64,000 bases of DNA, taken from Rhizomicrobium sp. Its GTDB lineage: Bacteria > Pseudomonadota > Alphaproteobacteria > Micropepsales > Micropepsaceae. The position numbers were made by a program, and so were the translations under genes. Below, in pieces: positions 56,742 through 59,815 of this stretch (its first letter is position 1; each line of letters opens with the position of its first letter). The DNA lies in contig JBBCGL010000001.1 in NCBI GenBank assembly GCA_037200385.1, forward strand, positions 868,001 through 932,000, in the 5' to 3' direction. The notes under the pieces are model-generated. The model saw nothing but the letters and a program-made list of their open reading frames with translations, was not told where the DNA came from and searched no databases.

Positions 56742-56802
56742 AGGCCGGACCGGCTGCCGGGCCTGTGTTATGCTTCCGCCGCTTGCGCGAGGGGGAAACG
56801 CG

Positions 56803-57741
56803 ATGGCGGGCGAGCCGTTCGACTGGAAAAAGATTGCGGCGCCGGAGAACCGGCCGAAATGGATCGTGTTCTTCCTGGCGGTCATCGCCGCCGTCTATCT
56901 CGTGCAGACCTTCGCGCCGGGCACGCCCCCCGCGCCCGGCCATGGGACGGCGTCCAGCGGCAATGGCGGCGGCGTCCTCGGCGGTCTGTTGGACGGCAGC
57001 GCGGGACGCGGCGCCGTTCCGCTCGATCCGCTCGAGAGCGGCCGATGCCGCACCTTCGCGCCGGCGGGCTGGAGCGTCATCGACAGCAACGCCAACGGCA
57101 CCGCCTTCACCGCCGCGTCCGGCGACCGCTCGGGGATCGCGAGCTATGGCGGCGTCGCGATCAATTCCGGCCAGGCGCAAGGCCTGTATGGACCGCAATT
57201 CACCTCGCCCGAAGCGCTGATCCAGTTCGCGGTCTCCGGGCTGACCAATCAGAACGCGCAACTCCAGCCCGGCCCCGCCTTCGGCGCCTACCAGACCGCG
57301 CAGCTCCAGGCCGGCGACTATCACGGCTATGTGCTCTACTATCGGTTTTTCCTGGCACCCGATCCGGGCGGCTACGGTCTCGTCATGCGCATCGCTCTGG
57401 CGCGCGGCGACCGGCATGCCGTCGCCGAAGCGGGCGGCGTCGCCGCCGCGACGCGCTGCCAGGCGGTGGTGATCCCGCAGCCGATCGGCAACGACACGGA
57501 TCGCGGCAGCGCGCATGGCGCCGGCACATCGAAAGCCTGCGCCGAGCAGGGAAGCTGCGACGACAGCGATCTGGCCGGCACCTACAACACGCAGCTCGGC
57601 ACCGGCTGGGTGCATGACTCGGTGGGGCGAAACTACAATGTCGACGTCACCAGCGATTACGACGACAACGGTCCCGACGGTCCGGGCTATTACGCCTCGG
57701 TCGGCGGCACGCGGGAGAAGCTGCAGCCGGGCCTCGAATAG
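56803..57741 (+). CDS. Hypothetical membrane-anchored protein
   Basis: 312 residues from ATG 56803 (GAGGGGGAAA upstream). A single N-terminal helix (about 28-47, KWIVFFLAVIAAVYLVQTF) anchors a glycine/proline-rich linker and a globular domain of about 200 residues with four to five cysteines (SGRCRTFAPAGWSVIDSN, TRCQAVVIPQP, ACAEQGSCDD). The C-terminal 60 residues look like a separate small module (YNVDVTSDYDDNGPDGPGYY). No family recognised. It follows phaC after 61 bases and may share its transcript. It converges with the graspetide ligase, leaving six bases between the stops. Confidence 0.65.
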   Translation: MAGEPFDWKKIAAPENRPKWIVFFLAVIAAVYLVQTFAPGTPPAPGHGTASSGNGGGVLGGLLDGSAGRGAVPLDPLESGRCRTFAPAGWSVIDSNANGTAFTAASGDRSGIASYGGVAINSGQAQGLYGPQFTSPEALIQFAVSGLTNQNAQLQPGPAFGAYQTAQLQAGDYHGYVLYYRFFLAPDPGGYGLVMRIALARGDRHAVAEAGGVAAATRCQAVVIPQPIGNDTDRGSAHGAGTSKACAEQGSCDDSDLAGTYNTQLGTGWVHDSVGRNYNVDVTSDYDDNGPDGPGYYASVGGTREKLQPGLE

Positions 57742-57747
57742 CGGGCG

Positions 57748-58599
57748 TCACGGCGGCGCGGCGAGATGATCGATGATCGCATCGCATAAGGCGCCGCCGA
57801 GGGCCTTGTCGAACGCGATGAACATGGGCTGGGTGTTGATCTCGAGAAAGCGGTAGCGGCCGGCGCCGTCCAGCATGAAATCGGCCGCGGCGAAATCCAG
57901 TTGCAGCGTCTCGCAAAGCGCCAGGAGACCCAGCCCCACCGCCTTGGGCACCTTTGCCGGCTCCAGCTTCGTGTCGTTGTCGTCGCGGTAGTCGACATGC
58001 GCCGAGGTCAGCGCACAGCCGAACAGGCGCCGGCCGATCACGAAGACGCGGAGCTCCGGCCGGCCGAGCCTCGCCTGATGGAAATAAGGTCGCCAGCGCG
58101 ACGGCGGATCGGCCCTGCGCCCCTCGTCCAGCGCCTCCGTCAACTCGCCACCGGCCACCGGCTTGCGGATCGACGCCGTCTTCGTGGGCGGCGGCGCGCA
58201 AGCTATCGTCGTCTCGGGTATCCGCAGGCCCGCGGCCCGCGCGGCGTGCAGGTTCTCGACCTTGTTGTTCTCCGCGCCATTGGCGGAGCGGTTGAAGCAG
58301 CGTATGGCGGGATCGGCGCAAGCCCAGCCACGCAGGAAATAGAACCAGTTCAGCGCCTCCGCGTGTGCTTCCGCGGGATCGGAATAGCCTTCCAGGAACA
58401 CGTTGTGCCGGATGAACAGTCCGGTCGGCTTCAAGGATTTGCCGCTCAGCGTCAGGCCGCCGCGCGCGAAATCGTAGACGACGTCCGGCTTCAGCGTCGG
58501 CCCGTTGAGGATGTCGGCGAACGCCACGCCGCGCGCCAGCACGCGCCGCAGCAGCCAGCCGATATTCGGATCGTACTGGCCGCCCGCGACGACAAGCAT
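57748..58599 (-). CDS. ATP-grasp ligase, predicted graspetide macrocyclase
   Basis: 283 residues. The fold is RimK/MvdD-type ATP-grasp: an N-terminal pre-domain (GGQYDPNIGWLLRRVL), a nucleotide-binding lysine in SIRKPVAGGELTEAL, adenine-site strand LRVFVIGRRLFGCALTS, and a metal-binding end AADFMLDGAGRYRFLEINTQP (the E and N hold magnesium). The gene starts nine bases after the repeat-rich precursor stop, on the same strand. Family members activate acidic side chains and join them to Ser/Thr or Lys as ester or amide crosslinks. At 283 residues it is a little shorter than microviridin ligases. No separate transporter or peptidase is visible nearby. Confidence 0.82.
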   Translation of the reverse strand: MLVVAGGQYDPNIGWLLRRVLARGVAFADILNGPTLKPDVVYDFARGGLTLSGKSLKPTGLFIRHNVFLEGYSDPAEAHAEALNWFYFLRGWACADPAIRCFNRSANGAENNKVENLHAARAAGLRIPETTIACAPPPTKTASIRKPVAGGELTEALDEGRRADPPSRWRPYFHQARLGRPELRVFVIGRRLFGCALTSAHVDYRDDNDTKLEPAKVPKAVGLGLLALCETLQLDFAAADFMLDGAGRYRFLEINTQPMFIAFDKALGGALCDAIIDHLAAPP

Positions 58600-58608
58600 C
58601 CGGTGCCG

Positions 58609-58971
58609 CTATTTCTCGCCGGCGATCTGGGTGATGGGCGGATGTTCCTCGCCATAGATCATGGTCGTGAACACCGTCTCCTCGCCGAGCGCCAGGGTCG
58701 AGATCGGCGGCCCCTCTTCGCCCTTCTTCTTCGTCGTCGGGCCGCCGGGCTTGTCCTCGCCGGCGATCTGGGTCGTCACCGGCCCGCTCTCGCCGGCGAT
58801 CAGCGTGATGGGATGTTCTTCGCCGACGGCGAGCGTGGTGATGGGCGGATGCTCCTCGCCCCACACCAGCGTGGTGATCGGCGGATTCTCCTCGCCATAG
58901 GCCAGTGTCGTGATCTTCGCCTTGGCCGCGGCCTTCCCGCCGGACGGCTTTTTCGTCTTCCTCGGTGCCAT
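58609..58971 (-). CDS. Graspetide-type precursor peptide with nine TTxxxGEE-like repeats
   Basis: 120 residues; ATG 58971 has AAGGGGAA upstream. A short basic leader (residues 1-19, MAPRKTKKPSGGKAAAKAK) is followed by nine tandem units of about 11-13 residues. Units 1, 2, 3, 6 and 8 are perfect TTxxxGEE (starting at T21, T33, T45, T79, T102); unit 5 is TTxxxGED (T66), unit 7 STxxxGEE (S91), and units 4 and 9 are shortened (ITxxxGES near 55, ITxxxGEK near 113). Many units end HPPI. TTxxxxEE is the plesiocin-type core motif, in which two threonines are esterified to two glutamates. The ligase is nine bases downstream. No conserved leader recognition motif such as PFF is seen. Confidence 0.82.
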   Translation of the reverse strand: MAPRKTKKPSGGKAAAKAKITTLAYGEENPPITTLVWGEEHPPITTLAVGEEHPITLIAGESGPVTTQIAGEDKPGGPTTKKKGEEGPPISTLALGEETVFTTMIYGEEHPPITQIAGEK

Positions 58972-58980
58972 GTCGTTCCC

Positions 58981-59150
58981 CTTGAAAAAAGATCAAAACG
59001 AAATGAAACAAATCGAGGCGAATTCAAAGCACCCCACGCTACGTACTACGGTCGCATGCGTATCACGGACAATGAATACAGTAAATAACAAGGATCATGT
59101 AGATATTAAATCGTATTTACTTTGGATTTCGGCACGGCCGAAAAGATGAA
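58981..59150 (-). promoter_or_regulatory. AT-rich promoter region of the graspetide operon
   Basis: The 226 bases between the PaiB-like gene and the precursor include a marked AT-rich island (about 59060-59130) in an otherwise GC-rich window. It would hold the promoter for the precursor-ligase transcript on the minus strand. No single -35/-10 pair is unambiguous. The low GC might also reflect foreign origin. Confidence 0.45.
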
Positions 59151-59197
59151 CACTGAGCGGTCCGCGACCTGCGCCGGCCGTTTGCGTCGGCGGCGCC

Positions 59198-59815
59198 TTA
59201 GGTTTTGCGCGTTTTGCGCATCTGCGCCGCGACCGCCGCGCCGGCGGCGTCGCCCCGCGCTTCGAGACCGTCCAGCGCACCGGCGAAGTCTTCCGGCTTG
59301 AGATTCTGCGACAGCTTGAACTTTCCCGCGAACGACTCGAGCGTCACTTCGAATCCCGCGATCGCGTTCAGCAGCGCGGCCATGCGCGCCTCGCCCACCT
59401 TGTCCGCGATCCAGGGCGCCTTCGGCAGCAGCAAGGCTTCTTCCGCCGCCGACAACTCGTCGAGCAATGCGCGCAGCTCCGCCACATCGGTCTTGCGGGC
59501 GATGCCTTCGGCCTCGACCGCGCTGTAATTCCACGTCGGCACCATGCCCTGGCTGCGGTACCAATCGGGCGAGACGTAGGCATGCGCGCCGAGGAAGGAC
59601 AGCCGCAGCCGCGCACCGTCCGCCGCCCGCGCCACCGGATTGCCGGCGGCGAGATGGAAGCGCAAGCGCTGCCCGTCGCGATCGAGCACGACCGGAGCAT
59701 AGGCGATCGCCACCCGGTCCGCCTGCGCCAGCATCACCACCGCGAAGGGATTGGCGCGGATGAAATCCCGCAGCATCGCGGGATCGTCGACGGCGAAGGC
59801 GGGCGGGCGATACAT
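59198..59815 (-). CDS. PaiB-type FMN-binding protein
   Basis: 205 residues. The split-barrel FMN fold is recognisable: MYRPPAFAVDDPAMLRDFI start, HLAAGNPVARA, FLGAHAYVSPDWY with the FMN phosphate contacts, and VPTWNYSAVEAEG. PaiB-like proteins were first described as negative transcriptional regulators in Bacillus but are probably flavin enzymes. The ATG overlaps the PhyH-family stop by one base. It is the last gene of the argC-PhyH-PaiB group. Confidence 0.87.
   Translation of the reverse strand: MYRPPAFAVDDPAMLRDFIRANPFAVVMLAQADRVAIAYAPVVLDRDGQRLRFHLAAGNPVARAADGARLRLSFLGAHAYVSPDWYRSQGMVPTWNYSAVEAEGIARKTDVAELRALLDELSAAEEALLLPKAPWIADKVGEARMAALLNAIAGFEVTLESFAGKFKLSQNLKPEDFAGALDGLEARGDAAGAAVAAQMRKTRKT

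Follow-up and report, generated by a model that had tools for sequence, protein, structure and literature searches.

A nine-repeat TTxxxGEE precursor and its adjacent ATP-grasp ligase as a candidate graspetide cassette whose ligase may read the core unit

The window analysed here, a stretch of 64,000 nucleotides from Rhizomicrobium sp., holds on its minus strand a short gene built of tandem repeats and, directly behind it, the gene of an ATP-grasp ligase. Along the minus strand, the features are:

58972..59197, minus strand: region 5' of the precursor, with a ribosome-binding site and a probable promoter
58609..58971, minus strand: precursor gene, 120 aa, a basic front end followed by nine T1-T2-xxx-G-E7-E8 units
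58915..58971, minus strand: precursor residues 1-19 (MAPRKTKKPSGGKAAAKAK), the entire 'leader', pI 11.4
58612..58914, minus strand: core array of nine units, of which 1-3 and 5-8 are predicted to be bicyclic and 4 and 9 monocyclic
58600..58608, minus strand: gap of 9 bases between the precursor stop and the ligase ATG
57748..58599, minus strand: ATP-grasp graspetide-type ligase, 283 aa, assigned by profile and structure matches

A sequence-only reading had described two frames 9 bases apart, and both were found on the minus strand at 58609-58971 and 57748-58599; the small gap suggests that precursor and ligase are translationally coupled. Upstream of the precursor ATG lies a Shine-Dalgarno-like AAGGGGA, and GC content over 58972-59200 drops to 0.48, below the surroundings. 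A sigma-70 consensus was looked for in 58972..59197 and none was found. The nine units read, in order, TTLAYGEE, TTLVWGEE, TTLAVGEE, ITLIAGES, TTQIAGED, TTKKKGEE, STLALGEE, TTMIYGEE and ITQIAGEK, so that five of nine are perfect TTxxxGEE, in line with the earlier count. Shuffling the precursor's own residues (n = 50,000) produced two TTxxxGEE in 2 cases and more than two in 0, and among the 586 ORFs of at least 30 aa in the window the precursor alone contained [TS][TS]xxxGE[ED]. These controls ruled out a chance origin of the repeats. Searches with the precursor gave no match among solved structures or in Pfam and a single chance-level match in NCBIfam.

The front end comprises the 19 residues before 'ITT' and has a pI of 11.4, compared with 4.4 for the core. 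An in-frame TGA lies 8 codons before the precursor ATG; a longer leader concealed by a misassigned start (ATG, GTG or TTG) is thus excluded, and the front end truly consists of just 19 basic residues. The motif Phhx(1,2)h is absent from residues 1-19. The very basic 19-residue leader without a recognisable motif, as first described, was borne out. At the other end, the last unit forms the C-terminus of the precursor, with no tail. Units 4, 5, 7 and 9 had all been called degenerate. This holds for units 4 and 9, where residues are lost (the outer pair jointly, with the inner pair retained), but unit 5 (D in place of E8) and unit 7 (S in place of T1) show conservative changes that leave a usable donor and acceptor. 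On account of both patterns, random decay of these four units was rejected.

The ligase was compared with profile and structure collections. Its leading NCBIfam matches were TIGR04187 (5.5e-18), MvdC (5e-12), MvdD and grasp-with-spasm, while rimK followed far behind (3e-5); peptide-maturase and rimK matches alike lay below the curated cut-offs. The RimK profile reached 23.5 bits against its cut-off of 143.4 and was weaker than four peptide-maturase profiles. The profile search that had been proposed as a check on the ligase thus came out on the graspetide side. Pfam returned nothing above cut-off. In 13 family members examined at 1e-3, TIGR04187, MvdC and MvdD matched all 13, grasp-with-spasm 8 and RimK 5. 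The best solved relative was 7DRM (1.1e-7 with the query alone, 6.3e-25 with the family profile), an entry that PMC10452190 names as PsnB. By profiles and 7DRM, the query ligase is nearer to graspetide synthetases than to other ATP-grasp enzymes. All 13 rows of the ligase alignment share K146, R184, D240, E253 and N255, as would be expected of a working ATP-grasp enzyme. Ahead of R184, solved chains carry residues beyond the family profile (PsnB 4, 9bou 10, the microviridin-type AMdnB, CdnC and 5ig8 13-15), which would hint at a smaller leader-binding hairpin stretch in the family ligases than in microviridin-type chains. The comparison is suggestive only, since PsnB is leader-dependent.

A Pfam scan of the ten flanking genes identified phaC, a paiB-like FMN-binding protein, PhyH, a semialdehyde dehydrogenase of the argC kind, DUF4282, TM2, amine oxidase, OmpA and aminotransferase; the flanking gene 56770-57741 had no Pfam match. 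As noted before, no transporter or peptidase was among these ten genes. The phaC-paiB junction of the window (56742-59197) measures 2462 bases, compared with 4-1298 in the 10 same-genus loci with both junction ends readable. Seven of these have gaps of at most 530 bases, three contain 1.2-1.3 kb of other sequence, and tblastn detected no ligase at the junction in any of the 10. The junction of the window is an occupied, variable site in the genus. The GC content of ligase and precursor (0.65-0.69) equals the local GC. The convergent gene 56770-57741 has relatives in 27 of 60 genus genomes, its own included (26 others). A role as partner is not supported for it, because the ligase was not found in the 59 other genomes and the gene itself in none of the loci compared other than the window's own. 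The corallotide pathway has a 2OG enzyme. PhyH is likewise not supported as a partner, since it also stands beside paiB in L065, L066 and L068, where tblastn detected no ligase.

Searching 100 relatives (the own genome, 59 of the genus, several of them incomplete, and 40 of the class) with the query ligase returned the own genome and one weak match to another ligase in the genus. The sequence-only reading had looked to related genomes for the pair: it recurs outside the genus, at 27 other loci, but none of the 59 same-genus genomes, several of them incomplete, yielded it. Also in the genus, locus L014 (1085-2451, G100) holds another graspetide-like pair, in which a frame for an ATP-grasp ligase accompanies one that resembles a precursor and starts MSQSMHPFLAAF. 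Both were labelled by eye, and this start looks like a classical leader. Across the class, 8 of 386 genomes matched the query ligase at 1e-3, own included and most of them weak, and one Rickettsiales MAG from this search encodes a precursor with seven such units. A two-row ligase profile run on genome_contigs gave 12 loci, the Rickettsiales MAG included, with a core precursor upstream in 12 of 12. With a 13-row profile, the phylum yielded matches at 1e-20 in 7 of 398 genomes, the core being present in the window's and one other and absent in five. At 1e-30 the same profile gave matches in one family within the window's class (4 of 248 genomes), in the family to which the Nitrosospira genome belongs (3 of 125), in the Thiothrix order (15 of 63, including six previously known) and in the class (2 of 385); all counts with this profile include the centre genome and members already known. 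Over the phylum, the families and the Thiothrix order, core-bearing matches scored at least 223 bits and the five without core 75-107. This patchy spread of the ligase-core pair would fit horizontal transfer. A phage origin was rejected: two short peptide patterns run on viral_contigs returned 103 stretches, none of them a relative. The plasmid search returned 7 records with weak matches (best 2e-11, 27-33% identity).

The 28 ligases (query, L015-L026 and L049-L063) formed one clade with support of 100/99 against 5 other graspetide-type ligases, with hosts among the Alpha-, Beta- and Gammaproteobacteria. The query subclade has five members (query, L015, L017 and two Paracoccus; support 98/94); in this tree the query branch is long (1.23) and the positions of L025, L061 and L062 are unsure. 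All 28 ligases have an adjacent precursor upstream on the same strand, with conserved donors (T/S/K) and acceptors (E/D) and at least one [TS][TS]xxxGE[ED]. Position 1 of this motif is T in 27 of the 28 precursors, the other being STMACGEE in L058. Precursor and ligase lie at most 104 bases apart or overlap by at most 32, the exception being L019 (547); L063 also falls out of range, its scripted ligase start having been placed too far upstream. The motif was found in 0 of 12 other ligase-like loci (about 3-4 kb each) and in 0 of 1,811 other ORFs of 16 family loci. The Rickettsiales ligase (L025:5800-6738) shows an internal tandem insertion of NPNTLGP-type repeats before the KP-GG motif.

The regions preceding the core are far more varied. 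BLAST left the pre-core parts of the 28 precursors in 11 unconnected sets; five of these hold one part each, 10-20 residues long (query, L015, L017, L049, L062) and too short to show kinship, so that 11 overstates the number of front ends. By eye we distinguished about six kinds. Short basic starts occur in the query, L015, L017 and the Nitrosospira precursors L026, L049 and L050, the core beginning as early as residue 11 in L049 and residue 15 in L017. The two Paracoccus precursors (L016, L018) have acidic leaders of 25-32 residues with VSGG. Beside the two-unit GG-leader precursor of Paracoccus sphaerophysae (L018:6896-10389) lie genes for a C39 peptidase-ABC transporter and an HlyD-like protein, so that some family members are probably exported. 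The L025 leader is weakly Nif11-like (E 0.0025-0.005, below cut-offs), the L061 front end is lipoprotein-like with a start that we take to be a lipobox, L060 and L063 have a common front-end domain without assignment, and the L062 precursor is cut by the contig end. The 15 Thiothrix-order precursors formed one BLAST set. At these loci (L019-L024, L051-L059) the TTxxxGEE module stands near the C-terminus of proteins that are mostly 300-500 aa long (151 aa in L022). Two of the 15 proteins, L019 and L023, were scanned; both contain DUF6174, and L019 RTX repeats as well; folded proteins may thus be among the substrates of the ligase.

Leader-dependent graspetides (microviridin, graspimiditide and the largest mapped clusters) have conserved N-terminal leaders that track the ligase tree. 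The query family showed no such leader, nor the Phhx(1,2)h motif that these leaders often carry: with AVILMFYW as the hydrophobic set, it was absent before the core, over the first 40 residues at most, in all 28 precursors. Even within the five-member query subclade, three front ends are basic, and the two from Paracoccus are acidic and carry a GG site. In published graspetides, leaders track ligase branches while cores vary (PMC8939145, section 5); judged from the sequences, the constant core and varied front ends seen here are the inverse of the pattern given in that section. Since the front ends vary on one ligase clade and the core stays constant, the core is the part that the ligase would read. 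It had been suggested at the outset that either the core or the basic tail recruits the ligase: the unrelated front ends on a constant core speak for the former, but the acidic Paracoccus leaders speak against the latter.

The architecture of the rings was approached through the residues lost from units. Units were anchored on [TS]xxxGE, which is independent of T1 and E8 but presupposes the inner pair; T, S or K at position 1 counted as donor and E or D at position 8 as acceptor. Among 141 anchored units in the 28 precursors, 131 had both outer residues, 7 neither and 3 one. Reduced to 75 distinct units, the counts were 65, 7 and 3 (Fisher 1.4e-7), or 59, 7 and 9 with Lys excluded as donor (Fisher 2.3e-5), values to be read with the units being non-independent and the alphaproteobacterial ones possibly sharing ancestry. 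With Lys as donor, seven of the nine distinct units without an outer donor had lost the outer acceptor too. The units with neither residue were ITLIAGES and ITQIAGEK (query), PTIFYGEH and PTIYMGEH (L015), PTAPIGEI and PSALVGEV (L017) and GTGFVGEG (L060); the three discordant units were STGEKGEG (L049), PTLPIGED (L060) and CSFWIGEE (L062). Within single precursors, the chance of such pairing is 1/36 for the query, 1/15 for L015, 1/45 for L017 and 1/8 for L060, and few events may underlie the joint losses of the query, L015 and L017. Dropped before counting were three overlapping ESPSTGEK readings and the pre-core NTFRGGEG (L058, L059) and STSLTGEG (L059). Invisible to the anchor are L063 units without Gly at position 6 and blocks without T-xxx-G-E; L063 contains a masked or gap stretch, and L062 is cut at the contig end. 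A reverse anchor, with T1 and E8 kept and the inner positions free, matched just in N-terminal regions and once off-register in L060. In the Nitrosospira block PVTKPKGTKD (L026), T1, E7 and E8 are all lost.

Because the outer pair is lost jointly and the inner pair kept, nested hairpins are predicted, with a T1-E8 outer and a T2-E7 inner bond as the simplest reading. Graspetides are macrolactone or macrolactam RiPPs made by ATP-grasp synthetases, each side-chain ester or amide costing 18 Da. Nesting of this kind would give the query seven beads with two rings and two with one, hence up to 16 esters and a predicted mass shift of -288 Da (288.2 Da) from a calculated average of 12,393 Da with Met removed. 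Six KTxxxGEE units (L060:7419-8432, L063:4806-5954) have Lys in place of T1 and keep E8, which suggests outer lactams instead of lactones.

The observation of a repeat precursor beside a ligase is confirmed, its interpretation as a graspetide locus is supported by the sequence comparisons, and the ligase probably staples the peptide beads into rings. We consider it rather likely that the locus is a two-gene graspetide cassette in which nested esters are formed in the units, 16 in total, and it is the core unit rather than a leader that recruits the ligase. The anatomy, the family, the constant core, the varied front ends and the joint loss of outer residues were observed directly in the sequences; the ester chemistry, the nesting and the independence from a leader we infer. 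The ligase would bind each unit through the hairpin-forming T-xxx-G-E, plus the outer pair, with no N-terminal leader. It would phosphorylate the Glu side chains and join them to Thr/Ser side chains inside the unit, first as the T2-E7 inner and then as the T1-E8 outer ester. Units 4 and 9 would receive the inner ring alone, and the product would be nine cyclised hairpin beads strung together, with all 16 esters. The ligase may act distributively, as described for PsnB in the relevant passage of PMC5934393. In this ligase family the core module could be attached to almost any front end. By analogy with plesiocin, a ring-within-ring peptide and serine-protease inhibitor (PMC13097080), the product would most likely, though tentatively, act as a multi-headed serine-protease inhibitor. 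Its hydrophobic loops (LAY, LVW, LAL, MIY) may point to chymotrypsin and elastase as targets, and KKK to trypsin. It might stay in the cytoplasm or leave by a general route.

The characterised graspetide ligases covered by PMC5934393 and PMC13003496 require leaders: ThfB fails without its leader (PMC13003496) and AMdnC depends on its own (PMC5934393), which counts against a leader-free reading. The 19 basic residues might accordingly bind or activate the ligase, with the ligase of each relative adapted to its own front end, and the recurrence of short basic MA-[PK] starts in the query, L015, L017 and the Nitrosospira trio would suit this. We nevertheless regard it as unlikely, given three basic and two acidic GG-site (Paracoccus) front ends inside one supported five-member subclade, the breakdown here of the leader-follows-ligase-tree rule of PMC8939145 (section 5) and the lack of Phhx(1,2)h before the core in all 28 precursors. 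The ligase could also be guided by a leader supplied in trans or by recognition that is spread diffusely over the linkers. Recognition might instead reside in a C-terminal 'follower' or in the linkers rather than in the hairpin unit. Five precursors from two distant ligase groups (L026, L049, L050, L060, L063) end in [NT]PFG[ER][FYR], and PFG resembles RPFG, a putative motif of the ThfA leader that PMC13003496 describes as functional when moved C-terminal. The query, however, stops exactly at its last unit, tail-free, and the other 22 relatives do not share the ending, which leaves little probability for this explanation. The PFG endings themselves could be a natural C-terminal recognition element in the five precursors that carry them.

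It is also improbable that the ligase bonds units or molecules to each other and yields a cross-linked polymer without self-contained hairpins. The one to four units that close some DUF6174 or RTX-DUF6174 relatives (two scanned) would suit protein cross-linking, but the joint loss of T1 and E8 from the same unit points to bonds inside the unit, and L057-L059 have a single anchored unit each. The possibility that a RimK-type ligase adds amino acids, or that an unrelated ligase happens to stand beside a repeat protein, we consider hardly credible. The weak RimK match (3e-5) and the 5 of 13 members reached by RimK at 1e-3 are set against three graspetide maturase profiles that match all 13 and a ligase-core co-occurrence of 28/28; on the profiles of the query and the 13 members, RimK or another non-peptide ligase was rejected.

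Returning to recruitment by the core unit, we see an even chance that the family as a whole reads the core. The eight-residue TTxxxGEE would then be a portable, self-recognising cyclisation tag, borne by short basic, exported GG-leader, lipoprotein-like and DUF6174/RTX proteins, and the ligase the first naturally leader-independent graspetide synthetase in the open-licence literature, making programmable mono- and bicyclic beads. No earlier report of such a core-reading, leader-independent graspetide ligase was found in the open-licence literature. In the graspetide families mapped in PMC8939145, the leader tracks the ligase and the core is variable; in the present family the core is constant and it is the front end that varies. 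Were a leader dispensable for the ligase, the eight-residue tag could be used inside cells to cyclise peptides or the tails of proteins with no need to engineer a leader, and the native arrays offer a test set for an essential (inner) versus a dispensable (outer) pair. If true, this would widen graspetides from secreted peptides towards the modification of ordinary proteins.

The repeat motif of the plesiocin class is TTxxxxEE. The query repeats share with it two Thr and two Glu per unit at equal spacing and the use of a single ligase, and PsnB (7DRM) is the best solved relative of the query ligase. The ring-within-ring of plesiocin (PMC13097080) resembles the nesting predicted for the query, for which paired loss is the evidence here. 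Differences are that the query has nine units whereas plesiocin is tetravalent, that the query family has Gly at position 6 (fixed by the anchor used), that the front end is 19 basic residues and that two units keep the inner pair alone. The query ligase has 283 aa compared with 334 aa in the PsnB chain, and the first 96 positions of the family profile are unaligned to PsnB. According to PMC13097080, group 2 often co-occurs with an NHLM-type transporter, whereas none is among the ten scanned neighbours of the query; the PsnB similarity group of that study was set at an alignment score of 70, and the query-PsnB match found here has an E of 1.1e-7. Gra-5 (group 2, PMC9576775) has one donor/acceptor set fewer than plesiocin, as do units 4 and 9 of the query; that paper reports apparently inefficient modification and no further characterisation, and Gra-5 is compared with the query by its description.

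Groups 34 and 35 of PMC13097080 often have long precursors with repeated motifs, as here, and group 35 consists of just synthetase and precursor. The query family may already lie within mined group 34 or 35, or within group 2. Fuscimiditide and its ligase ThfB differ from the query in leader dependence, in another core, in Asp acceptors and in a 67-aa leader (PMC13003496, PMC12291112). The same sources describe a leader that is tolerated at either end and two nested side-chain esters made by one ATP-grasp ligase, the arrangement that we predict for the bicyclic units of the query.
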